Part shown: in pieces, positions 200 to 22,113 of the stretch
How positions within the stretch are numbered: the stretch's first letter is position 1
Layout of the letters: every line of letters begins with the position of its first letter
Assembly: GCA_002224055.1 (NCBI GenBank)
Contig: AZLU01000391.1
Span: forward strand, 1 to 22,113
Source of the DNA: Pezizomycotina sp. ARF18
Taxonomy: Eukaryota; Ascomycota
Direction: 5' to 3'
Length of the DNA: 22,113 nt
Program-made: the position numbers and the translations under genes
The notes under the pieces: generated by a model
The model's database searches: none
What the model saw: the letters and a program-made list of their open reading frames with translations, nothing else
What the model was told of the DNA's origin: nothing

Positions 200-2146
200 G
201 AGCTAGTCGCCGTATTACGGAGGTGGAGCTGGACACGAACCGGGCGCACGCCGCCTTCGTAGGAGCGGGCTGCTTTCCTGTGCTATCACGGGTCCTTTTC
301 GCGAGCCCTTCGACCAAACAGATCACGAATGCGCTCAAGCAGTTTCAGGTCCCAAGGGTGCTGTTATTATGTGAAGAATTACACCGTACGAACTTTTCTT
401 CCCGAACCATTGTATGGATAATACGGCATTTAAAACATTACCAGGAGTGTTGGATTTCCAATTTGATGGTGATTGTGATCGCTTTCAAACATCGCACTGA
501 AGTGATGTGGGTTGGAAACTAGGTCAAAAAATGACCTCATCTAATCTATACACTGTTTTAGGGACGTCCTCACTTTGGCCTAGCTGCGACAAGCACACTT
601 CCGAAAACCGACCAACCCGTCGTAGGTCGTTGTCGCGACGATGTATCGGTTCCCGATCGCAATCCGGGAAAGTAGGTCGTCGCGGTATCGCTGGTACGGT
701 CTGATCCATAAAATCGCGGGTGCAATGACTTCACCCGTCCGGATTCTCCGCCGAACTCGTCGCCGACTACCTCAGTCACGTCGCGGATGGATTGTCAATC
801 GGCGCAAACGCTAGAGCACGTCCACATTCCAGGTCGTGATAAGCCCTGCGGCGAGGATAGCCTGAGAGATGAGATGGAGTTGGGAATGGGCATTCATAAA
901 ACGAACCGGCTGCAAAAACTGAAACCCGTGCCGACGCTTCCGGGCTCGTAAAGGAGATCTAGACCAGTTTTGGATATGAACGACAAGGAGAGGGCGTTCG
1001 TTGATTTCTCTCAAGCGGAGAAAGTTGTGCTGATGGTGAACAACCTTGGTGGTCTCTCTACGCTGGAGCTCGGTGAATTTTGAAGGAGGTTCACAACACA
1101 ACTAGTAGGAGCGAACATTCTCAACATCCCGGAAGATAAGCTAAAAAAAATTGTCACTACAGCGGAACGTAAAATCAACCCTATCCGTATCTTCTTCGGT
1201 ACCTATATGACGTCCCTCGATGTCGCGCTTCAGCATCCTCGCTCTTGAAGGCAGACGACGACATGATCGAGCTCCCGACCTCCCCACTAAGACTGTCGGA
1301 TGACACCAGGAGTCGACACGACCTTACCTAGAGGTGGTCTCACCCTCAAAGATTTCGAGGATGGAGTTTCGGCATTATCTTCAAAGATCAGGAAGACAGT
1401 GGCGAGGCTACAGGTTCGTATACGCGGAATTTACTCCTACTGCTTGTAGCGGAATCATTAACAATCAAGGTATACAGTCGATAAGCACCTGTTCGAGAGT
1501 GTTCTGAAAAGTCTCTGCATAATCTCATTGCGGCCGAGCCGACCATTACCAAGTACGATACCGCTGTTGGAGACGGCACTGCGGCCACAACCCTCAAGCG
1601 CGGAGCGAAGCCATCCTTCTCACTTCTCGTCGAACCCTAATCTCTTCGTCGCCCCGCAAAAATTTATCGACCATAGCACAAATTCTGGAATTCAAACACT
1701 GACGGTACCATTGGCTTCCTAATGACGCTGTGCCTCCATTCTCTGGCCTCGTCACTACCAAAGAAACCATCGGAATGGAGTGTTCAATGCATCGGAATGG
1801 GCAAATGCTGGCAAGAGGCGCTTGAGAAGCTGGCAAGTACACGCCTGCGGAACCCGGTGACAGGACTATGATGATGCCTTGACCCCGTTCGTGACGACGC
1901 TCAATGAATCCAAATGGCGACGTCAGGAAGGCAATGAAGGCAGCCAAGGACGGTGCGGAGAAAACGAAAGGCATGAAACCGACCCTGGCAGGGCTGTCTA
2001 TGTTCACAAAAAGGGATGGGATGAAGTTCCGGATGCTGGGCCACTGCCGTCTACGAAATAGTAAAGGGTTCGGTGAAATTGTTAGACCTGCGAAGCCCAA
2101 AAACCTCCTCGCGCAGATCACCGGCGATTCCTTGCCGTCGGCATAA
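200..2146 (+). pseudogene. Dihydroxyacetone kinase (Dak1 + Dak2 domains), many frame breaks
   Basis: The enzyme phosphorylates dihydroxyacetone with ATP, feeding glycerol-derived carbon into glycolysis and detoxifying dihydroxyacetone in the cytosol. Dak1 motifs appear in order: GGGAGHEP (219-242), FASPSTKQI (about 297-327), RRGIAGT then IHKIAGA (about 678-727), LEHVHIPGRD (811-840) carrying the substrate-binding His region, EMELGMGIH (about 872-898), VNNLGG (about 1036-1053) and GTYMTSLD (1198-1221). Dak2 follows with [14 protein letters not shown] (1536-1577), KYTPAEPGDR (1835-1864) and GAEKTKGMKP (1952-1981), ending at a TAA at 2144-2146. The motifs sit in different frames. For example, after 1570 a lost G, an extra C and another lost G move the reading within about 30 bases. 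I count at least ten breaks. No start is visible; the N-terminus may lie in 1-200 or before the window. Family assignment is firm; whether it is a true pseudogene or assembly noise is open. Confidence 0.9.
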
Positions 2147-2773
2147 AGCTACTTAGGACTGCTTTTCAGTTATTCCCTGAATTTGATAAATGTTGTGTCT
2201 ATATATCATATCTCATTTAGCATTTACAAAGCGTACTTTTTCATAAAGAAGACACAAAAAGTTTGAAGGCTACTTTTATTGATATCCATCGATATCAGTG
2301 CTTTTCCCTGAAGTGAACCGCCCTGTGGAATTCCACGATTTCGATCATTCGATCATGCGATCTATTTGTGCAGCCGACAGGGATTGCGGGATACCAACGC
2401 GGGTTAAAAAAAAAAAAAAAAAAGAAAGCTCTTTGCCACCAAATTTGGCCGCTCTTACTAAAGGGATTTGCTATTAACTTCGACGGTTCCGCGATCCGAG
2501 CTAATCGCATAGATCAGAAGCTCTGTAAAGCCAATACTTTAAATAAGAAAACACATCTGCCGCCATCAAAACGTCGCATGCAGTAGGAGTTCGCATCATC
2601 TCGTCGACGTCACGACCTTGCTCATCCAGCCTCGAACCAAAGCTCTTCTTCCCTCGCCGTTTTCGAACAGCTCATACTAGCTGTATTGTGCCTCGGAGGA
2701 CGTTCTCAACGTTATTACGACCGAAATATAGCTTGAATCCACCACTACCATACCGCGAGCACCACCACGGAAA
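2147..2773. other. Intergenic region between the DAK and aminopeptidase loci
   Basis: No coding signal was recognised here. It holds the presumed 3' flank of the kinase, an 18-base A run (2406-2423), and a leader-like stretch with CT-rich and ACCAC-rich patches just before the ATG at 2774. Confidence 0.5.
2406..2423 (+). repeat. 18-base poly-A run
   Basis: An intergenic homopolymer between the kinase and aminopeptidase loci. Confidence 0.95.
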
Positions 2774-4097
2774 ATGGACCAGGTAAAAATGTTCAGCGGC
2801 CAAAAGCCCATAGCGTCCAAGATGGGACTAGACAAGATCGTAGCTCGGAGAGGAGGGAGGAGCAGCCGGAGACGTATCTAGGTAGTACCTTGCTCGCCTG
2901 TTTGAGCTTTATTGCTAGAAAGCTAGCTCGTAGCGTAGCTTTTTCGTTTAAGCGAAATACTGTGGTGGGGTGACTTTTTTAATAGGCAACCACACGTAAC
3001 TGAGCGCTTCTTCGACGTACCGCTCAACCACGACGACCCTTCGAAAGGAACGATAAAGGTGTTCGCGAGATCGTACGAAACATGACGTCCCGCTGAAGAA
3101 GGCGAGGAAGCACCAGACGAACGTGAAGATGAGGAGATCAATTGAGAATCCGGGGTACTGTAAGGACTAATAGTCTAACGCTGGGAGGTTTAATAACATA
3201 GCTATAGCTTTTTGGATTTATTGTTTTTAAGTGTTATATTTACAAGGTGTTCCTGGTTTCGAGTGGCGGAATCCCGTCGAATTCAGCGTACACTGCTATG
3301 TTCCTGGAGAAAGGTAAGAGTACGTCACCATGTCCTTAATCAACTCTATCAGCTTATATGAACTAGCAAAAAGCTAACATCAGACGCACTCTATAGTTAT
3401 TCTCCTAGACCAACGCGGCAACCGGCCACTCCTGTATATCACCAACCTCAATCCCCGGCAAAACCGACGCCGAAAAAGCAGAATACCTCACCTACTTTCG
3501 CGCCGACAGCATAGTCAAGACTGCGAAGTATCCGGAAATCCCTGATCGGTCCAAACGGTAAATGGATCATCGCGGACAATCCATTCGGCGGTTCTGCGTG
3601 CTACATACCTCAGTTTCTTCCCCAGATCGTTAAACGAAGCGTCAATGTTCGGCGGAATACCACCGATGTCCGAAACCCATCCCGATGAAATATACCGGAA
3701 GCTATTCGAGAGGGTTAAAGTACGTAATTTTGCGTATTACAGGAAGTATCCTAGGGATTAGTCGGGTTAGGAGATAAAGCTACTTACTTAAGAGCCCGTT
3801 GATTTACCGGGAGGTGGAAAAACCGCGATATTATCTCTGCAGTTGTTGGCATTTGGCGGGCATGGGATAGATGAAGTGCACCAGGTGGTGTTTAGGGCGT
3901 GTAACGATCTTGAGCGGTTCGGGGAGATACTCGCGCCGACGCTTATGGGGATTCAGGCGGCTTCGGCGTTCGATTCGAACATTATATATGCGCGATTCAT
4001 GAGGCTATTTACTGCCAGGGGTAAAGTAACACCGCCAGCCTATTTTCTTTGCCTATTGGAGAAGATGAGAGTTGGAGAAGGATGTATCAATGGCTGA

Positions 4098-4102
<5 letters not shown>

Positions 4103-4136
<34 letters not shown>
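4103..4136 (+). repeat. 34-base poly-T run inside an intron
   Basis: An uninterrupted T run lies just upstream of the 3' splice site (GATAG at 4137-4141) of an aminopeptidase intron, where a polypyrimidine tract is expected. It is extreme in length. Confidence 0.95.
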
Positions 4137-4137
<1 letters not shown>

Positions 4138-4299
4138 ATAGGAACGCATCAAATTGGTCCGCCGAAAAAATGCGCTGCGCCGCCCGACGAGCGCATCCGC
4201 GTGTTAACATCGGACTAACGAGGCCTACGATGAGAAGAAGAGTACGGCATCCACGACGCCGTGTTCTTTACCGGCGAGATGGTAAAACCCTCTCTCTTT

Positions 4300-4312
4300 C
4301 CCCCCCCCCCCC
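4300..4312 (+). repeat. 13-base poly-C run inside an intron
   Basis: A C homopolymer follows a CT-rich stretch within the intron at 4282-4354 of the aminopeptidase locus. Confidence 0.9.
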
Positions 4313-4673
4313 AACATCCATAATCCCTCCCCACTAATACATGCAAATACACAGATCTTCTCCTCCATGTTCTCCGACTTTACCTCCTCCAACCCCTCAA
4401 AAACCTCGCCGACATCCTCTCCAAAAAATCGACTGGCCGAAACTCGCGACCCCGAACAGCTAAGAAGAATACCGTACCGGTTTATTCGGGACGTATTTAG
4501 ACGATAGTACGTCCGATTATGAATTTGACGAGACCCTTTGCGGAGAGTACGGTGCATTTAAGGAGTATGCTAATACGAACGTGCTTTATCATAACGCGCT
4601 GAGGATGCATGCGGGGCGGTGATGAGGCGCTGTGGAGTTGAGGGATGGGTGGAGGATTGATGGGGAGGTGTGA

Positions 4674-4893
4674 GAATGTATATGTGGTATTGGATTGTGC
4701 TTGTTGGTTTTTCAATGTCCGGCTTATATCGTGATAGAACATATGTTTTTGGTAGATCATCAATTTGCATGTACTTTTGGTATAAGAAAAATTATATTTT
4801 ACAAAATGTATGGGTCAATAAAACGAACAAGCAGATAACTTTTCTTAGCGCTGAAACGGAAAAATGACGCCTGAACGTGAAGAGAAATCCAAG

Positions 4894-4924
<31 letters not shown>

Positions 4925-6300
4925 TATATGTACAGTATATACAAAAGGTATCATGAGAATATTTACAGAACACCCATCCTACGTAACTTTTTACTTGTAG
5001 CAGGTCATAAAAACGCCTTTTACTTCGGTTCAGCGTAAACATCTCAAAAAGACCCGGAAGCAACCTCCACAACATCAAGTTTCCTGCCTAAGCGTAGTAA
5101 AGCCGAACGCTCTATTTCTAGCCTTGAGAATTGTCGCCGAATTCGAAGGACGTCTTTTGGTGCTGGGAAAGGTGTGTATAAAAATTGAGTTCGCAGGAAG
5201 CGAGGGAGAAGAATTGGAGGTGGATTTTGGTCGTGAGAAAAAGGAAAGAATTCGCCAAAAAGGGATGGGATGCATAGATCGCTAATCTTCAAAAACCGAA
5301 GAACGCTGAGAAGAAAATATAGAAAATGAAGAGCTTTTTTTTTTTTCTCTCGGTTATATTAATGGGTAACCTATGATTGGTGATCACCGGGAAGTCGTCC
5401 TATAAATTATAAACTGTCTCCTCGCTGCCCGAAATCTCGATGGTAACGCGCCTAGGCGCCTGTTAAAGAAAGGCATGCGGTTTTTGATGTAGCTGCATAT
5501 GGAAGGATGCGGGCTACGGACCTCACGCATATCGTTTCTTGCTGGAGTTTGCGTGGCCGTCTTGAATTGCTGCTGCCTGTGATCTGATCATTGGTGTTGT
5601 TGGACTTGTGGACTTGTCCTTCTTTGTTGCTGGAGAGAAGTCATTGGATCAGGCCTAGGGGTATATATATACACGTCGGCCAAGATTACCCTTTCTTTCT
5701 TGATATGATAATATGTTGTAAACGGGAAAGCTAAGATAGCTTATACTAGGGTAATTGTATTTCTGGAAGCCTTTTTGTTCCTCTTGTTAATTTTAGGCGA
5801 GTCGTTGTGATGTGTAAGAGTTTTTCCCTTCTTGATGTTGTGGCTATTTTGCGGCGTTCCTTTAAGGTAGGAGCGGCGGGCGGTGCTTAATTGGTCCGAG
5901 GATGATTGATAACGATAACATATAGAATAATAATTATAAATACCCTCTGGGCATATCTTTTTGTTTATATCTTGTCAATAATAGTGGGAAGGATCGAGAA
6001 AGATTGACACGCGACATGCCTCAGTCATTAGGTAGAAAGATCAAAAAGTGATAGTGATGACAACGAGGCCGCAGGAAAATTTTTTGCGGGGCTCCCCCTC
6101 CGGATATGTTGTCGCGTTGTCGTTTTCCGTCACATATCAACTCATATATCGCGGCGTTTCGCAATTGGACGAAAAATTCCGTGAAACGCATGTCGCTTGG
6201 CACGTGCGGCGGGGATGTTGAGCTATAGAGCGGTCTGACGGCACGCGAGGGAAATTCTTTCCGGAAAGAGTAAACGCCCACAGGACTTTAAAGGATTAAG
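4674..6300. other. Gene-poor intergenic stretch
   Basis: I recognise no gene. It contains a GA dinucleotide tract (4893-4924), a 12-bp perfect palindrome GCGCCTAGGCGC (5448-5459) and a small hairpin AAGCTA-AGA-TAGCTT at about 5729-5743. The + frame around 5091-5282 stays open for roughly 63 codons with a protein-like charged composition (pieces IVAEFEGRLLVLGKV and EELEVDFGREKKERI), but it has no recognised family and no clear start. It could be an exon, or chance. Confidence 0.4.
4893..4924 (+). repeat. GA dinucleotide microsatellite
   Basis: About fifteen GA units with one GG break near 4920, in intergenic DNA. No gene is attached to it. Confidence 0.95.
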
Positions 6301-7620
6301 CACAAAGAACAGCCCCCACGATGCACGCCTCCTAGCATTGAGTCGATTAGCCGCAAGGAGATATTTCATCCTTGCAGGTGGCTTTCGTGATAAGAGGATA
6401 AGAAAGTGTCACAAAAAGCTCTCTCTTGTGCACATATGTAGGTACATCGTGAGATTGAGCAATGCAATCGAGCCATTGGAAAACATCAGTGAGAGTTGCA
6501 CAATGCTTTCGGTCCGCAATCTCTTGTCGTAAATTGGAGTGCAAATCGCTCGTTCCCTTGCGAATGATACTTCTGGATGATGAAAGATGTGCTTATGCGC
6601 AACGTCTTGACGTCCTTTCGCAACTTCGTGGGTTACACCAGCGAGTGGATTGTGCCCATGATCCATGGATAACGATTCTGCGGAAGTAAATTACTCCTGA
6701 TAGGCACATTGAATACAAAATAAGCTGGTTTATGCCACGAGTAGTAGGAGAAGCTTCGGATTTGTGCCGGATCATCTGCTTAAGCTCTCTTATGGGCTGT
6801 AACTCTCTGTGGAAACCTTCCCCGAAGAAGATAGCAAGGCTGAACTTGACGATTTTCGTGACAAGAACACAGGATCCTTGATCATATCTCTAATTCAATG
6901 CAAAACGGCAGTGAGCAGAGACCTGTTATCTCCTTGTGTATAGGCAATCCTTGGACGAAACGATTGAACGTCGGAGAAGGTGGTATTCGTGGATCCTCAG
7001 CATGATCCATGTCCCTTCGGCCTAGACCGATCAAAGCCATTATTTCTGTCAGCCAAAATAGAGATGAAAGGATAAGAATATAGGGCAAAGCCTGATCTGG
7101 ATTGCGATACACTGATACCGGGTTGTGCCAGGAAGATGTCTTCAAAATTCCTTGGCAATTCAGAGGAACGACAACCGCCGCTCAAACGATGATCATGGGT
7201 AATGCTAATAGAAAAAAGGTAAGGCTCAGCATTCAAGGAATGTGAAAAGGGTTATAAATCGTGAGGATGGTTGTGAAACTGAAGTCAAACCTCATTTAGC
7301 ACAGCCTGACTAGGTTTCAACATTCTATCAAGGCGCATGGCAAAGTGTCGTGCTTGATTAAAATTACCCTTTATGCTCCAGCTTCAACTGAAGCGCGGGA
7401 ACAGTAGAATACCGGCGAGGACTCGGTAAAGCGAGCCGTCGGCCGTCGACGTGAGTTAAAAGAGACCATGATGACAGAAATTTGCATATAAATGAATAAG
7501 TAGTAAATACTAAGTAGGTGGAGTAGCAGATTTCTAGGTAGCTTAGGTGGAATTCGTAAACAATCGATGGTGATAATCATTGAAATTGAAGTGTTTTCCA
7601 TTGACCACCTAATCGTTTAT
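6301..7620. other. Intergenic stretch, no recognised gene
   Basis: Short open frames occur on both strands, none longer than about 87 codons. None shows a family motif, a splice-joined model or consistent codon bias. The 6340-6700 part has relatively balanced composition and overlapping frames on both strands, which could be a decayed gene, but I cannot identify one. Confidence 0.4.
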
Positions 7621-7630
7621 CATGTCTGTT

Positions 7631-7661
7631 TTTTATTTATTTATTATTTATTTATTTATTT

Positions 7662-7729
<68 letters not shown>

Positions 7730-7744
7730 TTATTTATATTATTT

Positions 7745-7776
<32 letters not shown>

Positions 7777-7778
7777 TT
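7631..7778 (+). repeat. (TTTA)n tetranucleotide microsatellite, about 150 bp
   Basis: Tandem TTTA units fill this stretch, interrupted at a few places by shortened TTA units. It opens long low-complexity frames (repeated Leu-Phe-Ile-Tyr) that are artefacts of the repeat and not genes. Confidence 0.97.
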
Positions 7779-10700
7779 CTTGGCTAGAACACGCAAATAA
7801 ATTCACCAACTTCAAACGATTGCATACTTAATATTTTCTTTTCTTTTTCTTTCAAATTTATCACAAGAACCCCCACGGCAAGTAGAATGCCCCAAAGTTC
7901 TAGAACAAATGTCAACACATTCGATTTTCGCAATTCCTTTAAACTCCTCTTTGGGACTTATTTGCCACTTTGGGTATTCGTTACTGCTTATTCTCGACTC
8001 TCGCGAGCTTACCGTTTTAACCTGGAAACATCGTTTCTGCAGTTGACATGCGGCTCGTGTTGGTGAGCTTGCATCAAGGAATAAGGTATCTGGGACAAGC
8101 TTTTTTACCCCCAAAGACGGAATAGCCAATTCTCCGGATGTCGGGAAATCCCTCAGCTACTCGTATCTACGCAAGGTTTATCTGTCTATACAGCTTGCCT
8201 ATAGACACGGATACGGATGGAAATATCACCTAGCTTGCGCAAGATAACCGGGACACGATGCGACTAGATCTTTGCTTTACTATGTGTAACTGACCAGTAC
8301 TCGAAAACACTTCAATTGAATATCTTAACAGCTCTTGCACGGCGAAAACAACCGGCCCGACGACTTATTGCTTGCAGGTTCTTCATCTGCTTTTTTGCTA
8401 CGTCCTAGAAACAGGTCGGGGTAGACGTTTCTCTTTATCTTTCTTCACAGAAAAACTTACAGTGTGTCATCGCTTACTGCTATTTTCAGACAGGAAATAT
8501 ACTTTTGCTGTCAATAGACGAGCAAAAAATTGTCCCGTGTTCGAAATCTGCTTATGTGGGCCCGGCGAGACTCGCCGGTCTCGTTACTACGCATCAAGCT
8601 TCCATTCAGATGGCAGGGCGGGCAGGGCTGCTAGTCCAGAGGACATTTTTTTCTTTTTAAAGGAAACGTCGACTCTGCCATGTCTGCCAATGCACTCATG
8701 CACTCAATCATGCACAGGAAGGGACCTGCAGGATTAATATATTTGCTTTATAATATTAATCTGCGCAAGAAAAAAAAAGAAAAAAGAATAGCTGGCTTTT
8801 ATCTTGCACAATTATTTTACGCCTCAGTGGAGCGTGGTCCTGTTGATCATGAGAAGAGATTTGTCTGTCGCCACCTCCACACAGGAAATTTATTTCGAAA
8901 TTGACCGATTTGATAGAATAGCAGTCTGGCGGCGTCGATCGAACGAAAAGTCTGCGCAGAAACGGGTCAAACTTGGGGCAGCCAAACGTCGCAAGCCATG
9001 CTCTACTTTGCTCTGCGTGTCTACCTTTTATTTTGCTTCGTTTCGCTTTGTTGTCTTTATAGACCCGCGAGACATTATTGTCTCTACAGGCCGAACCGTG
9101 CGTATATAGATACTGACAAAAGGAAGGGAGAATATCCTAATATCCTGCAGCGAGAGGGGTATTGATGATTGCAATTTGCAAAATAAAATAAAACTTACCA
9201 CAAAAATTGAACCCCGGCAGCTTTGTCTTAGGTCGACTTTTATTATTAGCGAGGTGCCGATCATTGGTTTTGAAAGCTGTTATCCGTTGTTTTGGGAATT
9301 GTAAATAGTCAGTAGTAAGAAACGAACAATCACAATTCTGGCCTTCAGTCTCATGCTAACTGAGTTGCTGATACGAATGTCCTTCAGGGGAAAGTAAACC
9401 TCGATACTTGGCAGAAATCTGCGAAAAACGAGTTTTTGTCGCCTTCGTTACCAATGCATGGAAGGAAGTACGAGAAGGGATTGGCCTGTAACACTAAAGA
9501 TTTGGCCACGTTTTTTTCTCTGCAAGCGACCTGCGTTTTGCCATGAAAACCGCGTGGCCGTCAAGACTCGAAAAATATGATACATATGGCTTTTGCCTGC
9601 AGAAAAGATATCTCTCAGTGTTAGCGCAAATTGAAACCTATTCTGATTTGAAGGGAGAGTCGATTTAAGCGAGGAACCTTCTGCACCCTCGCAATTCTAG
9701 TACCAAGCAGAGCATCAATCTGCTACAAACGTTTGTGTACGGTATCTAAGCGGTACATGCTCGCACGTTCTGAAGCGCTGATCATATCCGAAAATTGTTG
9801 TTCGAGAAGGTTGCCTATCAGTTGTATTGGAATAATTTGGGATGGGACGGCACTGAAGCAAAATTGTCCTCTTCATTGGCTAGATCGTTCCAATATTCGC
9901 TTCGGCTCACGTATTCCCCTGCGAACGCGAGCGCCACCGACCTTGACTAAATAGTTTTTAAGTTATTTCTATCCGGATTTTCTAGCTGTAAAAATTGCAC
10001 TGGTATAACCTAAAAGCGGGGGTGAAAGGAAACCAATCCCTATTTGGAAGGATACGGTGAGAATACTCCTGTGCCTGTCCTTTTTGTTCACTAACTGATC
10101 ACTCTAATGCCAGGATACAGTGATACTGCTGTCAGTATCAGAAGCCACCAAGTTAAACTCAAGGCTGTTAATAGACAGGCTGAAGCCATGAGGAAGTGCC
10201 AGTCAAGTTACGTCGCTACTGTTTGTACCGCTAGCGAAATTAGCAAGATTCAAGTACACAGCTGCGCTGAGACGAAAATATATTCTGTTGTTCAATATTC
10301 TTGTAGATTCTTTTTATTCATCGCGGTTCTCCCATGATATATTACTTCTTTCGACCCTTCGAATACCTCGACTTTCTCCGAATTGGACCCGATCAAGATA
10401 ATCCCAGAGTAAAAGCTCGCTGTGAGTACTCTGCGTTCAGGAGTCAAGTCCAGCGACATGAATAAAGGGGGTTTCCGGGGGTCTGAAGAGGGTTCAAGGG
10501 CACGTTAAGCATATACTTTTGCTGGAGATAAGGACGGGACCCCAAGTTCCGCTGATTCTTGGTCAACGCAAGCTGGAAAGACCCACTGAAGAGGATCCAC
10601 CCTCAAATACGTCAAAATTGCCCTATGTATTATTCTTCACTTGCTCATTACCATACTCCAGAAAGAGGAAAAAACAAAAAATTCGTTCTCATGCAAAACC

Positions 10701-10985
10701 AAAATATTCCAAGTCTGCCAAGTTTCTTTCTCTTTCCCTCTTTTTCTTTCCTTCTCCGTTTTCCTTTGTTTTCTTGCTCAGTAAACTTATTTGAGAAATA
10801 CTTACTGAAGTCGCAAATGCGGAAAAACTAGTCTACTAGGTGTGCGAGGAGTTACTGCCACACTGGCGTGACTAGCTACTTTCTGCTTGCCGTTCGCCGG
10901 AATTTGGAGACAAGCGTCTTCAAATCAGGCACCTAACAGCCACTGCCTTCTTTCTTTTTCTTTTTGCTTTCTTGCTTTCTTTTCC

Positions 10986-11007
10986 TTTTTTTTTTTTTTT
11001 TTTTTTT
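10986..11007 (+). repeat. 22-base poly-T run
   Basis: A homopolymer at the end of a CT-rich stretch in intergenic DNA. Confidence 0.95.
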
Positions 11008-11142
11008 ACCTGCTTCGCTTTGGTGTGGGACGAATATTTACGCCTGCACTTCGCTGCCAGCCAACCAGCGTTTCCTTCCAAGGTTATTCCTTGCTGTACG
11101 TCTGTGGCCCCAGTTATCCGGGAGAGCAGATTATCCAAGGCA

Positions 11143-11164
11143 ATATATATATATATATATATAT
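11143..11164 (+). repeat. AT dinucleotide microsatellite, 11 units
   Basis: An uninterrupted AT repeat in intergenic DNA, about 480 bp upstream of the receptor start. Confidence 0.95.
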
Positions 11165-11647
11165 GCAAGTCACTGCCAGGGTCTATAGGGAAAAATCGCT
11201 CCCAGAAATAATGTGTTCTGATTTATTCATTTCCTAGGATTTACAAAACGGAAAAAAGGGAAAAATAACCCTTCTTCGATATTATTCTCTAGATCACTGG
11301 CATTATTCTCGACCGATAACGACTTATAACGAGCGAACAGTCCAAGCGTGCCGACTGCGAATATAACGTGGCGTTGACGATTTTTGATATTCATGCGAAG
11401 CGCTTAAAAAATTGGCCAAACACCGAAGAGCACACAGAAGGCACTTTTATACGTGGTTATATCCCAATGGTAGTGCAAGCCTCGCAAGATAAAACATCGA
11501 TATAGCAGCGAATAGCGTAGGTCTTTCGGGTTCCTCTTTCTGGAACAAGGCCTTCGGAACTACCTCAGCCTTCTTTTTATCTCGATATTAATAATATCAC
11601 ATCCACCTCCCCCTCCTCGACTTTGAAAATCCGTACCGCAAAAAACC

Positions 11648-13664
11648 ATGGCATCACCACCCTCGATAGAGCTGTTAACATGGTCCCTGCCGAAGGAGCT
11701 GTTCTCGCGAACAGTAAGCGAGGCACCTCATCCCTCGCCTACCTCGTGGTTAACGTCGGACCGCATTTTGTTAATGGTACGTTAGGCTGGGATAAATTTG
11801 ATCTTCACATGCGGGGGCACAGGTTCGATATTCGGGTAATTGTACCGATAAAACGAGGCTAACAACCATGCAAATTTGCTTTTATAGAATAACATGTCTG
11901 CTATCCTTGCGGGCATAGCTGGTGTTCTCTGCCTTATGGTCCTAGCGTTTACAGCGCTCATTGCTACGAACAAGGAGTCGCGGAAATATCTTAATCGAGT
12001 CTCTTTCCGGCTTCTATCTATGCTTTGATATCGAATTGCATTACTCCATTGGCTATATAATATGCGTGAAGGTTAATCCAGGTGTAAGTGTTATTTTTCA
12101 TGCCAATTCTGCCTTTTTGCTTCATGATTTCAGGATTTAAGGCTAATAAGTGACATAGTTTTGGTGTGTTGCTGGCGTCTGGATGATTCAATTCTGGCTC
12201 GGCGTTACGAACTGTCTCATCATGTTCATAGCATTGAATTTATTCCTCGTTCTTGTTCATCTGAAGAATGGTATAGCACTGGAAAAATGGTACCTGGTCG
12301 GAACCATTTGCTTGAATTTAGCAACGACTCTACCACCTCGTAAGTCACTCTTTGATGATAGATAGAAAACTTTGTTTCTCGAAGCCTTCAAATGAATTTT
12401 GTTGTTCTAACTGCCATGTGCAGTCATCAAGGGGAAATACGGCTGGGATCCGATCATCAAAGTGTGCTGGTTGACGTCCAACAACGACCACAATAGGCTC
12501 ATATGGCAGTTCTGTACACAACTCATGTGGATCCTTCTTGAAGTCTTTATAACGTTGTTGGCCGCGACTGTTACTATCTGCTCGATCTACAAGCACAAAT
12601 TCACCGCCATCAAACTCCTGAAGAGCAACCAGCCAACCGATACGACGATGAAGTCTTTCAGCTCTCATCCACCTTCCGCACCAATGATGACAAAAAAAAG
12701 ACGGGTAGCAAATACAGCATCGCTCAGAAAGCGAATAGGAGTCTCCTAGGCAATAGTGACTTTAGGCGTATCATTTGGCGTATAAGTCTATATCCCATTG
12801 TCATGATCCTGATTAATGGTAAGACCTCCAAAATTCCTTTATCTTTTTGCAAGGTAAAAAATACTAATGTATCCCAAAATAAAATTTAGTGGTGATTACG
12901 GCTGCAGACATCAGGATATCCACGCCAATGGAATATACAACCGCTACGATTACGGGCTCTACGTCGTCTACTACGCTCTTTACGGGGCTCGAGGTATCTT
13001 CTACGCGGCCATAGCCTGCTGCGACCCAGCTCTCCACCGTGGCTTCAGATTATGGAGGGGAGCCCACGGATACTCTTCGAATTCCTCAGATAACCTCACC
13101 GATGGCGCCGCGGCCGAAGCCAACAAAGTTCCCGACCAATTCGTCGAAGCGAAGCAGCGCGCCCAATTCGGTGGCATCAACGTCCAAACGCAGATCACAA
13201 CTTTTATCGACAACGAGGACGAAGTCGACCCCTCGATACCTCCATGCCCATGACGCAAATACGCAACGGCCCTGCTGCGGGAGCCGTGCACACCGTTATC
13301 GGGCACGGGCAACAGGGACCTCAGATTACCCTACCGCCCGCGGCAATGCTCAGCGACCACGAAGAGCTCGACGGCTGAATGCATTACCGTCGAACATCGC
13401 GGTAACAGGCTGAGTAAGGACAAGGTACGCGTGCAGACGCGGCCGGAGCTCGCTGGCCTCGAGGGTGACGCGGAGAGCGAGTTCTCGCTCGAAGAACTAG
13501 ATGATGCTTCCACGACGCATCTTACCTTCGTCGACGCTTACGGCGACGTCACTTCGCCGCCGGCCCAGTTCAGCCGCGCTGACATCGAGGGTATAAGGCA
13601 GAGGCAGAGGCAACGGTCGATAGCGAGGAGAGAAGCTGAGCGGAAGATGAAGATGCAGATTTAA
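11648..13664 (+). CDS. Fungal seven-transmembrane G-protein-coupled receptor (Gpr1/Git3- or cAMP-receptor-like), frame-broken as read
   Basis: A plasma-membrane receptor likely to signal through a heterotrimeric G protein; the ligand is unknown. Exon 1 (11648-11776, 43 codons) joins in frame to exon 2 at 11888 (intron 11777-11887). Further introns are about 12084-12133, 12340-12423 (CTAAC branch, in-frame join) and 12819-12889 (ACTAAT). Hydrophobic segments: TM1 11894-11965, TM2 about 12003-12055, TM3 12183-12263 (ending LFLVLVHL), TM4 about 12288-12339, TM5 about 12504-12590, TM6 about 12769-12818 continuing past the intron (RIIWRISLYPIVMILIN), TM7 about 12954-13034 (YVVYYALYGARGIFYAA then CCDPAL). 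A cytoplasmic tail of roughly 200 residues follows. It is polar and charged, ending in an Arg-rich stretch (RQRQRQRSIARREAERK) before TAA. Frame breaks lie near 12020, 12640, within 12890-12950, and in the tail near 13240 and 13375. The exact subfamily cannot be settled by eye. Confidence 0.85.
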
Positions 13665-14070
13665 TACAAGATTTTTTTTCTTGTAGGCTATGCAGTAATC
13701 TGTGCCTTATTTGTTTTATATAACGCTTTGCGTTTGCGCGGGGTTCTGGGGTTTTTTTTACGCTTTATGCTTGTGAACTTTTTGCTTTTTGGGTCATGTA
13801 TACTATTTTCATGTAAAAGATCGTGTAACAGCTGTCGAGCGCGCCCAGATTCGAAATGAGAACTGACTGTTCTCGGTTCGATTTTTGAGTACTAGACTAT
13901 AGCTAAATGTAATAGTTTTTCTTAGAAAATGGGATATAATAAGGAGATATAAAACCCCTTCCGATCTATTTAATAATATAATTATGAAATACCTATATAT
14001 TCTGATCTCTGTTCAATAAACCTATATTCTACCGCGGAGAACATACAGGATATACCGATGACAGCGGATC

Positions 14071-14090
14071 GCGATATTTTAAAATATCGC
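14071..14090. repeat. 20-bp perfect palindrome
   Basis: GCGATATTTT is followed directly by AAAATATCGC, a self-complementary 20-mer with no spacer, in the AT-rich region downstream of the receptor. It could extrude as a hairpin, bind a dimeric protein or be chance in AT-rich DNA. Confidence 0.9.
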
Positions 14091-14294
14091 TACCTTGCGA
14101 GACTTAACTTGTACATAGCCCGGGCGGCGTCACGATAAAGTTAACCTCCTTCAAGTAAATATTCAAGCGCGTATTTAGGGAATATTAAAGATTTTCAGTT
14201 ATAACTAATATAATATTGCGAATAGTATTAAGTACTTAAGTAGCCAGTGATATTGACCTTGATTCCGGTCCTAAGTCTTATATAACGGGGCGAC

Positions 14295-14320
14295 TTTTTT
14301 TTTTTTTTTTTTTTTTTTTT
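14295..14320 (+). repeat. 26-base poly-T run
   Basis: An intergenic homopolymer flanked by a GGGG on each side. Confidence 0.95.
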
Positions 14321-14720
14321 GGGGCTTACTATGTTTCTCGGTAAAAATTTAGTGGTCTAGGACTCTCGGGTCAGGGGTTCAGAAAAGGTCCGGAAAACGG
14401 ATGGAACCGCGTGAAGCCCTAGAGCTCCCTTAGGCGAAATGTGGATCACGAGCCGCGTGACCCCTTGGTTTAACTGCGCAAGTTTCGAAATCAAAACTGG
14501 ATCTACGAGAACGTTACTTATATATTGCTATATCCGTCTTACAAAATACTATATCCAATTAGATAAACTGGGCGAGCTATGCCGCTGTTCTCTGGAAGTA
14601 AATAAGAAACGACACTTGGATCTTTACCCCTAAACAATCCGGGATAGAGCAAACAACGGGTCTCAGACAACGAATCTCTAATAACCCCTTAACTACCTCT
14701 ATCCACGGACCTACCTCCTG

Positions 14721-14727
14721 TATAAAT
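14721..14727 (+). promoter_or_regulatory. Possible TATA box of the esterase gene
   Basis: TATAAAT lies 41 bases before the ATG at 14768, followed by a CT-rich leader ending CTTCAACTCAAAATGG. The composition fits a filamentous-fungal core promoter, but a TATA element this near the start codon implies a very short 5' leader. Confidence 0.4.
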
Positions 14728-14767
14728 CATCTAACCTCCAGTTCCCACCGAATCTCTTCAACTCAAA

Positions 14768-15820
14768 ATGGAAGAAGAAGCTATAAAAATGGAAAGAGCT
14801 ATATCCGAGAACAAGATCGCCGTCAACGATCTGAAGAGAAAACTCGGCATCAAATCTGAGAGTGACCACGATCTCAAAAACACTGAAAAAATGGAAACCG
14901 AAACCTCATCTTTTCCCGACCTCCTAATCCACGAACCGACCTCAGAGCAACACACGCACACCCTAATTCTAATCCACGGCCGCAGCTCCAACGCGCGCAA
15001 ATTCAACCACCGCCTCTTCACACATCATACTCGCTCCTCCTTCCAACCTCATAATTTCCCGTCGTGGCGCATAGTAATGCCGTCCTCGAAGCGTATATTG
15101 TACACCCGCTTCGGCGACGTCCGGCCGCATGGTTCGATCAGTACGACTCGACGACGATTGGTTGCGGTGGAAACTCATGAAGGCCGGATTACAAGATTCC
15201 GTGGAGTACCTTAAAAGTATTATAAGGGATGAGGTGGAAATGTTAGACGGGAGGAGTGAGAATGTTGTCGTAATGGGTATTAGCATGGGGTGCGCGGTGG
15301 GCTGTGGACGTTACTTTCGTTATACGGGGATGGAGATGGAGATGGAGGTGGTAGATTGGTGGATCCGTGGGCGCGAGCGGGTGGTTACCGTTCGCGGATG
15401 AAATTGAGGAGGTACTATGGGGTTCGGAGGAATTAGAAGGGGAAGGGAGGAGAAAAAGAGAAGAGGTCAAAGTTCGTACGGAAGCTGTTGGGCGGTGGTG
15501 GTAAGCTGCGAAACAATCCGGAGGTTTTAATAAAGACGCCGGTGTTCTGGGACACGGGAAGGACAAATCATAAGGTGAAGATGCACCTCGGAAGGCGGGC
15601 GATCGATGTACTGGGCGATGCGGCGTGGGTGGATTGGAGAGAGTATGAAGGCGCTGCGGATGGAGGCCACTGGTTTAAGGAGCCGGAGGAGCTTGACGAC
15701 GTAGCGGACTTTCTAGCTGGATTGAGGGTTAGAATTGTGCGAAGTAAAGCGAAGCGTTTTGCATATTTCTGGTCGAAAGACATCATTGCCGTAAATAATA
15801 CACGCATTTTGTACATATGA
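14768..15820 (+). CDS. Acyl-protein-thioesterase/carboxylesterase-like alpha/beta hydrolase, frame-broken as read
   Basis: A serine hydrolase of the phospholipase/carboxylesterase group (Abhydrolase_2 type), probably cytosolic. Motifs in order: LILIHGRSSNARKF (about 14960-15004), RIVMPSSKRILYTRFGDVRP (about 15070-15129), DSVEYLKSIIRDE, the nucleophile elbow GISMG (15276-15290), GASGWLPFADE (about 15370-15402), GHGKD (15550-15564, likely acid residue), and GGHWF with the likely catalytic His at 15668-15670. These sit in at least four successive frames, with breaks near 15130, 15300, 15360, 15490 and 15565. No intron is needed. The first ATG gives about 41 extra Lys/Glu-rich residues; the ATG at 14891-14893 would give the more usual short N-terminus before HEPTSE. 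The final residues after FLAGLRV look like read-through, so the native stop may be earlier. Confidence 0.85.
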
Positions 15821-16557
15821 CAAGGAAGACCGGAAAGGAGTTTCATAGCATTGTTCCCTTTTCAACATAATGTTATTTTGTCGCACCATGGTTCTCCTGG
15901 AAGGCGCGGGGTTGCGATCGCGGTGATAGTGGCAGATTCAGGCCTGGGGGAATACAGCTTTCGCTTAACCTTTTTCCCTTTGTGGGCAATGAAGAAAAAA
16001 AGGCCGTATATGGGGACGGAATGCGTGTAACCCTCGGTTTGCCAATCACAGTGTCTCGATGGTTCCAAACGTAGTAAACATTACCTCCGGTACACCCTTT
16101 TAAGATAAATTGCCCCCCATGCAGGGAAACCAAAAAGGCCAGGGCTGTCCTGGCCTACTCGTTTGCATGGGACGCTTGGTTATCATGCATGCATTCTCAC
16201 GATCTTTACTTTTTTAACGAAATTTTACGGCCATTCCGATCGCTCCCGCCTTTGAATCGAGCAGTGCGGATGAGAGTGGGGAAAGGGCCGTAAGGCTACT
16301 AGTTCTGTGGTGGCAAAGTGCGGATATATATTTCCACAGCTGCCGAGCAGATTACTTCCGAAAGCGGTTTCTTTTTAGATCTGGGATTAAGGGTAAATAT
16401 TGAGAAATGAATAGAATGAACATGTGGAGAAGAAAAAAATTGCAGGCAAAAAATCAATCTCAGCACTTATCCGTGAAATCACGTAGTCAAGGTCCTGGAA
16501 ATCCGTAGCTCTATCTATGTGGTAACCTTCGTCATCGATAGAACTTGCTAGAATTTA
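15821..16557. other. Intergenic region, nothing recognised
   Basis: No open frame with a recognisable motif is present on either strand. The minus-strand frames around 15862-16133 overlap each other and show no family signature. Confidence 0.5.
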
Positions 16558-17023
16558 ATGCAGGGAGCTCAAGCATCATTATTGACAGCTTGCGGCTTCC
16601 AAAGACGGGAAGAGGAGTTAGAAGGAGGAGCAAAAACCGGTAAGCTGGACCCTTCAGAAATGTCCCTCGATTGATTTCGCTTTCTTCTCAGAACTGAAAC
16701 CTATTTCGATAGTCTGTGATGTAGCCAGGACCTATTCGAAAATCTTGGAAGTTTGTCCGTGTGCAAAATGCGACAAGAGCAGTTCGAACCTTTCAGTTAG
16801 AAATGTGATAGTAGCGGTCCGATCTAAAATGGAGGGTTTAACAAAAGATCAGCGATCAGCGATTCGTATTGAGAATCAGACGGTAGGCACAGTTGCCCAC
16901 TTTGCGGCAGCTAGGGTTTCCCGAAGGAAGCTAAGATGTTTGAGCTACAAGACAAGCATTGAGAGCTTAAAATCTGGGCGTAGTCGTCCTTTTTTTCCCC
17001 TGCGGGAACTGACGTCAGCCTAA
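16558..17023 (+). CDS. Possible small two-exon hypothetical protein (137 codons)
   Basis: ATG at 16558 opens 27 codons (16558-16638) plus one base. A 52-nt intron with GTAAGC and a pyrimidine-rich TTTCTTCTCAG end (16640-16691) then joins in phase to an open stretch that runs to the stop at 17021-17023. The product begins MQGAQASLLTACGFQRREEE, contains a small cysteine group CPCAKCD near residue 45, and has a basic C-terminal half (VSRRKLRCLSYK). No signal peptide or membrane segment is seen. I recognise no family. It is the only multi-exon model in the window that needs no frame correction. It could be a genuine orphan gene, the N-terminal remnant of a larger gene, or a chance join; the short length makes chance realistic. 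Confidence 0.35.
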
Positions 17024-18106
17024 AACAGCTAAAAGGAAAAAGAAGGTTCAGATGCTGCCTTTTTAATAAATACCACGAGGAAACTTTTGCATCTGCAGGA
17101 TAAAATTTTCTTCTTGCATTGCGTAAGACAAACAGACAGTACCCACAATGAAGCGGAGCTTTTTACGAGGATAACTACCATGACCAGCTAAGCAGACCCC
17201 CTTCTATTTTTTCACCACGGTTCAAAATGGAAACCTTTTGATGGCGCTGGAATGTCAAAATGGAGTTCAACCGAAAAGCTGCATCGCATCGGTGGAGCCG
17301 TCTCCGGTCTTACCGGACGGCGGAGAGGGGTAGAAGAAGAGAGAGGAGTTGTTTGAGTGAGACGTAGCGAGTTTGTTTCTAGAATCGCGCAATGTTCCAC
17401 AAGCGTATGATGATGAGATGGACGAGAGATTTTTCGGCAACTCTGGGTATCGAAATGAAGATGAAAGATAACGCTAGGCGGGTGAGGGACATGTGGCTTG
17501 ATCAGTAAATGTATCATCAAATAAAAAAGTGACATTCAAAAGACACCTTAAAGGTTAGTAGAAAGTAAAGAAGAGTCTTGTAAGAGAGAATTGTAAGAAG
17601 TTGTCTTCTCATCTTCGAAGCTTTTTGAGATATTTTTATAAATGAATAAAAAATACTCGTGAATTGCAGTAATAATAATATTTATTTATTTACTTTTCTA
17701 TTGCTTGTTCCCTCGTCAAGGATCGTCGTTTTTGAAGCAGATCGAATTAAATTTCCCACACCCTAAAAGAAAAGGATCGAGCCATATAAAGAAATATATA
17801 TAATACGCTTGAAAAAAGCAGTCTTTTTTAAACCCCCCCCCCCCCCTCTTTCGCAGTATAATAAATCCTCCTTTACTGCCAACTTTTTTTTCCAACTTCA
17901 TTACTCGTAAACCACTTCACTTCACCTCTTCTATCGTCTGGTATACATAGAAGAGACAGTATAGTCATATCCTCCTTCATGTTCATTAGTATCCGTCTTT
18001 TCATCGCTCTTCCTTTTTCCACGCACGACTGCTTGGTTTTGAGTTCCCTTTCCTGCAATCGTTATTCTCGGGAGTTTTACCCCGCTATATCCTTAACACG
18101 ACAATA
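17024..18106. other. Intergenic region upstream of GLC8
   Basis: No supportable gene. A minus-strand frame of 107 codons (17212-17535) has no motif. Present are a 14-C run (17833-17846) and, from about 17880 to 18106, a CT-rich leader that probably includes the GLC8 promoter and 5' UTR. Confidence 0.5.
17833..17846 (+). repeat. 14-base poly-C run
   Basis: A homopolymer directly after TTTTTTAAA, about 260 bases upstream of the GLC8 start. Confidence 0.95.
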
Positions 18107-19310
18107 ATGTCACATTCGCCTCCAGCCAGCTACAAGAACGCCGAGAGGCCTAGGGGTGAGTGACTGGACAGACTCCTTCGATAGTGTGCTGCTTTTTTCT
18201 TAAATCCTACGAGGGAGAAATACTCCGAAATATATAGTGCCCTAAAAGCTAACACTTTTCCTTTCGTGATTTCCCCTTTAGGCATTCTCAAGAACAGCTC
18301 CTTCCATGTTTCACCCCTCTCGAGCCACAAGCGTCAGCTCCGCCAGTGGTGAGCCGCAACCAGCTACACCTGATGCCACCACCAGCAGCAGGTTCAGATT
18401 CCGGACAGCGCAGCCACCTAGCGACAAAGACCTTACTATCCAAAACACGCTCCAGAATGCCGGTCGCCGACGCTCCTCTTCTGCCCTCGGTCGCACTAAT
18501 TCTTCAGGTTCCAGACGCCAATCCCTAGCTTCGCGGCAGAATTCCTCCTCTTCACAAACCGGTTCGGCAGCGCAAATTGACGCTCCCGATGCCTCCCCCG
18601 CCTCAAGTGGGATGAAGCCAACCTCTATCTCACCGAGCAGGAGAAGAGCTCCACCATGAAGATCACCGAACCAAAAACCCCTTACGCCAAGCACTACGAC
18701 CCCGCAGAGGACGAAGAGGAGCTCCAGCTGCTGGACGCGGAGAACGTAGTTGTCGACGAGCTTGATAGCCTCAAGAAGAGGACGCCGGTCTAAACCACTC
18801 CCAAATCGGTGAGAGCAGCAGCAGCGGCGGTGCGAGGGATAAAGATATTCCCGGCCTAGACATTGGGGAGCCGGAGGAGCCTATTTAGCACGTTCTCGGC
18901 TGTGCAGGAAGACGACCCGGAGGAGGACGATCGTGAAGAACGGTCGTCTAGCAGTGGCAAGCAGGTCGTCGTCGAGGACGACGGGCACCACGATGCCGAA
19001 GATGATCCGACAGAGAACGTTGAAGCGCATCAGAAATTCGTCGATCTCCGCAGGAAACATTACGAAATGAAAGATGTCAAGGAACTCTTGGGGTAAGTTC
19101 GTCTTGAAATATAATCTTCAATGGGATGGAAGTTGAAGTTGCATGCGTCCCATGGCTTTTACTAATTCGTACTTTTTTGTTCTCGCTAGACATCCCGAGA
19201 TGCTCGAAGATGACGAAGATGACGATGGTGACGTGCCAATGGATGAGAATGCGGACAATACTCCAAACGGAATCCCTCCGGTACCTCCGCTGCCTAACGG
19301 CCGAGTATAA
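18107..19310 (+). CDS. GLC8: GLC8 / protein phosphatase inhibitor 2 (IPP-2), frame-broken as read
   Basis: A regulatory subunit of type-1 protein phosphatase that modulates PP1 catalytic activity. Exon 1 (18107-18155) encodes [17 protein letters not shown]; intron 18156-18281 (CTAAC branch) joins in phase to ILKNSS, giving the PP1-binding motif GILKN. Further family marks are a Ser/Arg-rich segment with [15 protein letters not shown] (about 18438-18483), [13 protein letters not shown] (18605-18643, second PP1-contact region), [18 protein letters not shown] (TPY is the counterpart of the regulatory threonine site), [11 protein letters not shown] (about 18849-18881) and KKHYEM-like [14 protein letters not shown] (about 19051-19092). 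Intron 19093-19189 then joins in phase to [12 protein letters not shown], ending at TAA 19308-19310. Frame changes lie near 18300-18345, 18590, 18780-18800 and 18880. Splice phases and motifs are intact, so the gene was recently functional or still is. Confidence 0.92.
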
Positions 19311-20550
19311 TGGAATAGCTGCGAAAACCCCCCCCGCCGGGACACTTGAGTTGAATTCGAAGAAGGATCTCAGGTTCATTATTACTGGTCACGATCATTA
19401 TATAATATATTCTGGGTCAATTTCAATTAAAAAAAAAAAAAAAAAAGGAAATATGTCAGCAATGACTTGGATAGAGACAAGAAATCTGCTTTGTCTCCTG
19501 TACATTTTTGTTTTAATAATCGCTAGCAACAAGAGCAGGAAGATTTATTGATACATGGGTTTTCGTTTGCGTGTTCTTTTCCGTTTTTCTTCCTCTTTCT
19601 TTTTTTCCCCTTTCTACAAATACTACTGTCGCCATTCTTCACGATCCCCCGATATCCATTTCTCTTAAGTGTACTCTTGCTTCACCATCCCCCTCACCCT
19701 CACTTCTCTCCAACACTTCTTCACTATCACCACGCTCGCAGTAATCCTCACAATAAACCTCACTTTGACACCGAAGTCGAAATTTCACCTTTTCGTACAA
19801 TTGTAATCGAGACCCGATAATAGGCTGTGCATACACAAATTGAGTGGCTTAGGCCACACAAACACTACCATATTTTTTTTGTTTTCTTCTTCTCTTTGGG
19901 AGTTGGAATTATTATTTGACAGAATTTCACCAGAGCATCAAAAAGTAAATTTGAGATGACACCTCGTCTACAAGCTGCACTTCTCAAGAGTTTGCCACCC
20001 TTGCAGCAGGTTTTTATTCTTCTTATAGATCAACAACGATATATTTCCTCTACCTATACCCTCTTCTTTTGAACTGTTCGTTCTCTTATCATTACTATCA
20101 TGTCTGGATCCGGGGAATATGCTCGTGCTCTTGCTAAGAATATTTGCGAGGCCGGTTGAAAAATATTGATTCATATAACTAAGTAAAATCTTTTTCCTTT
20201 TTCCCGTAATTTGGTACCGAAAATTTAAAAAAGCAAGGATGAGACGAAAATTAAGTTGTTTTTGCTGTGTTAATGGTGCGGCGGAAGTTGCCGAAAACGC
20301 GTTCCTTAATAATTAATTAGATAGGAACTTATTTGGGGTCACACCTTTTCGTGATTCATCCGTTGGAATTCACACAGCTCCCCCAACACACAAACAGAAT
20401 ACAACAAACAAACAACTAACAATATTGCTGTTTTTTCCATCGATCTATCCATCATCAAACATCGTCATCCCGTCCATCAAAGCTATGTAATCAACACTCG
20501 AAGGAAGAAGGAAGAATATTACTCGAGTCTCACTTATTAAGTTTATCAAA
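19311..20550. other. Intergenic region between GLC8 and the last gene
   Basis: No supportable gene. It contains an 18-A run (19429-19446), CT-rich DNA at about 19570-19760, and from about 20380 a CAAA-rich then CATC-rich leader typical of a fungal 5' UTR leading to the ATG at 20551. Confidence 0.5.
19429..19446 (+). repeat. 18-base poly-A run
   Basis: An uninterrupted A run about 120 bases past the GLC8 stop. It is genomic, not a transcript tail, since unrelated sequence continues beyond it. Confidence 0.95.
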
Positions 20551-20634
20551 ATGGACTCAAATCAGGAGGAGTCCCTGGACTTCCACGGGCTGCAGGCGTT
20601 GATGTACACGGACCCGCCGTGAGTGTTCCTCATT

Positions 20635-20674
<40 letters not shown>

Positions 20675-22113
20675 GTTCTTCCCTTATTGGATAATTCGTA
20701 CCAACAGCATATGTATCTTCAGCCTTGTCACCAACTTACTAATTCTGATTCTTTCTCTTTCCTAGAGTCAATCGTCCCACTTCGACAAACCGCAGGATGT
20801 CGACCTTCCTCCGGGGTTAGTTACTTTACAGGAATGCGCGACGAAAGCTTCAACAGAGAAATAGACAACGACTCAGTAACCAGTGCTGGGACAAATATAA
20901 CAACCGTGAACCGTTGATCCCACCGACCCCATAGAACCCCGAGAGGAGCAAGACCAACGGACCTCGCCGACCGTCGTTATGGAGAGGAGTCCAAACGCAA
21001 GGCAGTCCAATGCCACCCCTTTTAACGATACGGGTGTCGATAAGACTGGTACCTTGCAGCTGGGATATTCTCCTTCCAAGCAGGACGATCTCGGTTTGGA
21101 CGATCCGACGCAGCGGGACTCGGATTCGTATAATGAGAGGCTGAGGCAGAGGGTTGGAGGGGCGAGAGCCTCGACCACCTGATCAATTTTGACAACGACG
21201 TCGAGAACGCGGATACGCAGCCGGTGATAGACGACGACGATGAAGAAATCGAGGTGGACGAAATACGCACGCAAGAAGAAGAGTTGGTCACATTCTTTGA
21301 CGAGAGTAGGCGGTTTGAGACGCCGCGTCAAGAAGCGGAAGACCGGTCCCCGGAGACGACGAACAGAACCTTCCGCTGGCGGATCTCGGGATAACGACAT
21401 GCCGCTCGGATAACGCAAATGTTCAACGCCTCCGCCTGTCAGAAATTTTCGAGCACTGTCTCGAGGAATACACTTCTCCAGCCGTTGTGTTGCAAACAAA
21501 CGTGGCTACGAATTACCCTGCTGACGGATCTCGCCGCCCGCTCCCGCATCGTTGGGGATTAAAAATGTTACAGAACCGGCTGCAGATTACGTCTCACTAC
21601 AAGAATCTCAAGAACGGCGAAAAGGACGGAAGAAGGCATTCACGGAAGCCGATAAGAGCGACGACGTGGACGACATGATCCGTTCAGAGCCCGCTGGGGA
21701 GCGTGAGAGGAGGGAAAGGCACAGGGAGAAGACGTAGAGGAGCAACTGAGAAATATTAAAGCACCTGCAAGGCCTAACGCTGTTCGATACGGAAGGAAGC
21801 CGAAGGATAAGACCAAATCGAGCTCCCGCACCAATTCGCCGGTTAATGTTAGGATACGCCGACAAGAGTCCGAACAACAGGAAGGTTATAGAGCCGATAG
21901 AAATAATGGGAATACAGAGGAAGAAGTAGAGGAAGAGGAGCATGTTAGGAGTCGACGGTGGATATCCGTGAGATAGAAGAACAACACAGGTGGACGAAGA
22001 GGAAATTGAGCCTCGGAGATTCAAGTCCCCAGCACCGCTAAAGAAGGCGACCAGAAAGACGCGAATGTTTTGCCTTCTGACGACACGCCCCTACGGGCGG
22101 CTAAGGTTAATGG
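20551..22113 (+). CDS. Unrecognised charged, probably disordered protein (3' truncated, frame-broken as read)
   Basis: ATG at 20551 follows a CAAA-rich leader. Exon 1 (20551-20618) encodes MDSNQEESLDFHGLQALMYT and a few more residues. An intron at 20619-20765 has GTGAGT, a 35-T run, an ACTAATT branch-like motif and TTTCCTAG. Downstream, coding-like pieces follow in changing frames: FDKPQDVDLPPG; TGTLQLGYSPSKQDDLGLDD (about 21042-21101); a very acidic stretch with DDDDEEIEVDEIRTQEEE (about 21229-21282); LQESQERRKGRKKAFTEADK (about 21600-21657); and GRKPKDKTKSSSRTNSP (about 21794-21843). Alternating acidic runs and basic nuclear-localisation-like clusters with few hydrophobic residues suggest a disordered, possibly nuclear or chromatin-associated protein, but I recognise no family. 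At least five frame changes are needed. The end lies beyond the window. Confidence 0.55.
20636..20670 (+). repeat. 35-base poly-T run inside an intron
   Basis: An uninterrupted T run 17 bases after the 5' splice site of the first intron of the last gene, well upstream of that intron's own branch and pyrimidine tract. Confidence 0.95.

Follow-up and report, generated by a model that had tools for sequence, protein, structure and literature searches.

Frame-broken genes on a fungal contig very probably reflect consensus errors present throughout the assembly

Do the frame changes that interrupt gene after gene on contig C391 of the ARF18 assembly belong to the organism or to its assembled sequence? 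The whole contig, 22,113 bases with a G+C content of 45.4%, is the window analysed here; the assembly comprises 46,361,250 bases (46.36 Mb) in 408 contigs. A fungal origin is suggested by its gene content, by its short GT-AG introns and by an actin that shares 92% identity with that of yeast. The features of the window are collected in Table 1. Stretches 5000-11500 and 15900-18000 contain no recognisable gene, and the codon model used below marks only short segments in them. Searches of the window and of six other assembly loci detected no tRNA, and no Rfam family reaches its gathering score in the window. Pure T-runs of 34, 26 and 35 bases lie at 4103-4136, 14295-14320 and 20636-20670, respectively; in other loci A and T runs reach 80 bases, with one T-run of 80 outside the window.

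Table 1. Features of the window and the basis on which each was placed
Feature	Position	Strand	Basis
Dihydroxyacetone kinase (DAK) gene, frame broken	202..2146	+	Dak1 Pfam match; DhaK alignment over 219-939 (N-terminal part); both outer ends (202, 2146) set by open stretches, not by alignment
Prolyl-aminopeptidase-like alpha/beta hydrolase gene, frame broken	3014..4619	+	Alignment to Salinivibrio hydrolase
(TTTA)n array, irregular units all short	7632..7778	.	T-run counts
Putative seven-helix receptor gene, frame broken	11648..13664	+	Codon model; ends read from sequence
Putative phospholipase/carboxylesterase-type gene, open stretches alternate in frame	14768..15820	+	Open stretches; Abhydrolase_2 below cut-off
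GLC8 / protein phosphatase inhibitor 2 gene, frame broken	18108..19310	+	IPP-2 and codon model; ends read from sequence
Unrecognised last gene, frame broken, off contig end	20551..22113	+	Codon model

The first-pass annotation had claimed that the genes of the window must be read in several frames. This was confirmed by alignment for the DAK and aminopeptidase genes and by a homolog-free codon model for the receptor, GLC8 and the last gene. A frame-slip alignment of the aminopeptidase with a Salinivibrio prolyl-aminopeptidase-type hydrolase (40% identity, residues 17-412) places 9 slips in 1,128 coding bases, or 8.0 per kb. Four of these are net minus one and five net plus one, an excess of deletions being absent there. 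The alignment also proposes five GT-AG introns, one of which sits at the 40-base floor and is perhaps spurious; any survival of splice sites in the window genes is visible solely in such putative introns from alignment. The same method, applied to the N-terminal part of the DAK gene and E. coli DhaK, gives 4 slips in 525 coding bases and one intron. The Dak1 Pfam match at C391:805-1119 is above cut-off in one search and below it in two others.

By the codon model GLC8 has 3 slips (18324-19087), and the receptor tail (12912-13658) and the last gene (21137-21731) have 2 each. IPP-2 matches GLC8 in two separate open stretches (E 7e-13 and 7.5e-6), Pfam searches of the receptor gave no match, and four of the last gene's open stretches are likewise without one. 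The model is specific (synthetic intact sequence totalling 42 kb produced 1 false event) but insensitive outside strongly biased genes, giving 9 slips on C70 against 16 by alignment and 0 in the DAK gene on C21 against 3. Its slip counts are a lower bound, and it saw only 78 bases of the coding sequence of the window aminopeptidase. On the minus strand of these genes, too, it marks coding-like segments that contain a few slips. For the esterase the model found no slip, and its probable frame break is read from successive open stretches that alternate in frame (14735-15211, 15078-15398 and 15437-15817). The names given to two of these genes come from sub-threshold matches: Abhydrolase_2 (E 0.014) and carboxylesterase SOBER1 (E 1.7) for the esterase, and an adhesion GPCR in the PDB (E 0.29) for the receptor.

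If the window were a local pseudogene block, a region that lost its function and gathered indels by neutral drift, essential genes elsewhere should be intact. A search of the whole assembly therefore covered the families of HSP70, CCT chaperonin, actin and tubulin. Together with Dak1 they provide 26 loci, a comparison weighted toward genes still recognisable, and 18 of them switch frame one or more times across a gap shorter than 40 bases, which is too short for an intron. Such tight frame changes occur in 5 of 7 HSP70 loci and 7 of 8 CCT loci, and the 8 family loci without one consist of only 1-3 pieces each. Against errors throughout the assembly stand a few essential stretches that are unbroken, such as a MutS domain on C54 over 188 positions.

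Seven loci on seven contigs were compared with yeast actin or yeast Ssa1 by a base-level alignment that permits slips and introns. The actin-family loci have 2 (C15) and 4 (C382) slips, and the HSP70 loci have 7 (C49), 16 (C70), 18 (C3), 8 (C208) and 8 (C303). All seven are thus broken, each at least twice, with 63 slips in 10,851 coding bases, or 5.8 per kb. A net loss of one base accounts for 53 of the 63 (p = 3e-8). The control, E. coli dnaK aligned by the same method at 53% identity, shows 0 slips in 1,809 coding bases. The locus on C15 is an actin relative at 39% identity, while identity to yeast actin is 92% for C382 and identity to Ssa1 is 81% for C70, values so high that these are working-type genes and not relics. 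The reach of open frames was also compared. Per 3 kb, the longest open reading frame reaches 110-189 codons in the 7 pieces of the window; 29 loci from elsewhere in the assembly reach 98-441 codons (median 156), and four bacterial stretches 442-645 codons.

Non-coding sequence is affected as well. Fifteen copies of 5S rRNA (L038-L052) are dispersed over several contigs and, apart from a few divergent ones, belong to two main sequence classes. Two copies served as references for the two classes, 4 divergent copies (L049-L052) were dropped, and the 9 compared copies contain 13 deletions, 1 insertion and 9 substitutions, with at least one deletion in 7 of the 9. Twelve of the 13 deletions lie inside runs of two or more identical bases, which hold 34-41% of the bases (p = 2e-4). 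Against their nearest reference, the dropped copies L049 to L052 have 3, 2, 1 and 8 deletions, 0, 1, 4 and 5 insertions, and 8, 9, 21 and 5 substitutions, respectively. The first-pass annotation had read the window as an indel-rich, unpolished consensus. Such a consensus predicts the same damage in essential and non-coding genes elsewhere, and its presence in both, on other contigs, supports that reading.

The (TTTA)n array of the window offers a further view of the direction of error. The T-runs between its As have length 3 in 32 of 39 cases, 2 in six and 1 in one, and none is longer. With 7 short runs and 0 long ones, the direction of error is the same as that of the deletions elsewhere. Coding slips are not nearer to long identical-base runs in the 10 coding alignments (mean longest run 2.63 versus 2.60 for the background, p = 0.36), although a deletion shortens its own run and slip positions are uncertain by several bases.

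Mitochondrial sequence was considered as a source of replicates. Pieces of a mitochondrial-type cox1 are spread over about 115 kb at C50:91811-206518 (L096-L100), with the first exon matched twice, at 91811 and 136069. The flanks of these two matches are 79% alike over 1.6 kb, so L097 and L100 are paralogous stretches and were rejected as replicates. The spread of cox1 reflects either a misassembly or a mitochondrial genome that is very large and intron-rich or duplicated.

In a mixed account, errors occur everywhere and one or two window genes, such as DAK, are truly lost besides. A second DAK gene at C21:201124-201915, in 4 Dak1 pieces with 3 tight frame changes and 3 slips in 693 aligned coding bases, could leave one copy to be spared, although it is itself broken. 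The rate of the window aminopeptidase is also high. However, DAK and aminopeptidase together have 13 slips in 1,653 coding bases, and their 7.9 per kb does not differ significantly from the 5.8 per kb found elsewhere (p = 0.31). Eight of these 13 slips are net minus one. Rates in the window lie inside the range of loci elsewhere, which differ among themselves from 1.8 to 10.3 per kb (chi-square p = 0.03), so uneven density within the window needs no separate cause. The lower counts for the receptor and GLC8 come from the less sensitive codon model and are not comparable with the aligned DAK and aminopeptidase rates. Extra true decay of single window genes is possible and is not needed to explain the rates; the mixed account as a whole is unlikely.

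The local pseudogene block fares worse and is highly improbable. The window genes are indeed broken, and no second copy exists in the assembly to display an intact version: apart from simple-repeat matches, the only match to the window is one of 68 bases at 85%, and direct comparison with a duplicate was ruled out by this single-copy state. Yet the damage is not confined to the window. Essential genes on other contigs show a comparable rate of breakage, and 7 of 7 aligned housekeeping loci are affected where intact ones were predicted. A cell in which all HSP70, actin and CCT genes were broken would be inviable, and the block is rejected on this ground. It would also require five unrelated families in a row to decay together yet stay recognisable, at 37-40% identity to bacterial homologues. 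Repeat-induced point mutation (RIP) would not fit by its definition, C-to-T changes in repeated DNA; the damage counted here consists of indels, and the window is single-copy.

Accounts that accept genome-wide indels as real meet the same obstacle or others. A mutator lineage lacking mismatch repair would accumulate indels in identical-base runs, as the preference of 5S rRNA deletions for short runs might suggest, but living cells need actin, HSP70 and CCT at any mutation rate. Nor are MutS-type repair genes lost, since the MutS_V profile, on which this test was run, matches on four contigs (C54, C171, C308 and C18), some of the genes being broken in turn. This origin has an extremely low probability. 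Alternatively, the DNA could be correct as written and the frames restored by RNA editing or widespread programmed frameshifting, and the motifs do remain recognisable across slips. We know of no such process at this density in fungal nuclear genes, and the untranslated 5S rRNA is also hit, which excludes frameshifting as a full account; restoration of this kind is given almost no credence. Equally negligible in our estimate is a variant in which nuclear and rRNA genes would truly lack single bases throughout and their RNAs would be repaired by insertion editing, as in the mitochondria of slime moulds.

The frame changes of the window are thus, with high confidence, base-calling or consensus errors of an insufficiently polished assembly. 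The damage spreads through the genome, strikes essential and non-coding genes, is single-base in scale and has an excess of deletions. We infer that the sequencing method was one of long reads. A long-read assembly released without polishing, or polished too little, would leave base-calling or consensus errors, mostly the loss of one base and often in short identical-base runs. These would amount to roughly 0.6 to 1.3% of positions throughout the assembly, and the genes would presumably be intact in the living organism. The survival of T-runs of up to 35 bases in the window, and of one of 80 elsewhere, may be more in keeping with PacBio continuous long reads than with early nanopore data.

With a coding kilobase carrying about 6 slips, the majority of genes of usual size would be broken on paper, and gene calls, pseudogene counts and claims of gene loss or frameshift made from this assembly would be unreliable. 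The artefact is an ordinary one and matters mainly to annotators of the ARF18 genome. Slip counts in actin and HSP70, together with a comparison of 5S rRNA copies, quickly separate such an assembly from true decay without recourse to reads.

A comparison with known systems places the window. Pseudogene clusters and degenerate subtelomeric blocks resemble it in having several adjacent genes with indels and differ in that the damage here spreads beyond the region and into indispensable genes. Errors of long-read-only assemblies resemble it in single-base indels that break frames genome-wide, and the residual indel errors of such assemblies were reportedly described by Watson and Warr in 2019. 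According to PMC8812927 and PMC12007338, residual single-base indels in long-read-only assemblies break frames and are mostly errors in the length of identical-base runs. Two differences remain. Here the run context is seen in the 5S rRNA deletions, with no enrichment in the coding loci. In addition, even for a long-read-only assembly the rate seen here is high, at about 6 to 13 per kb; in the example given by PMC12007338, errors affect less than 0.05% of the genome. Residual long-read indels are nonetheless an already-known artefact, and the breaks in the window are no true biological feature.
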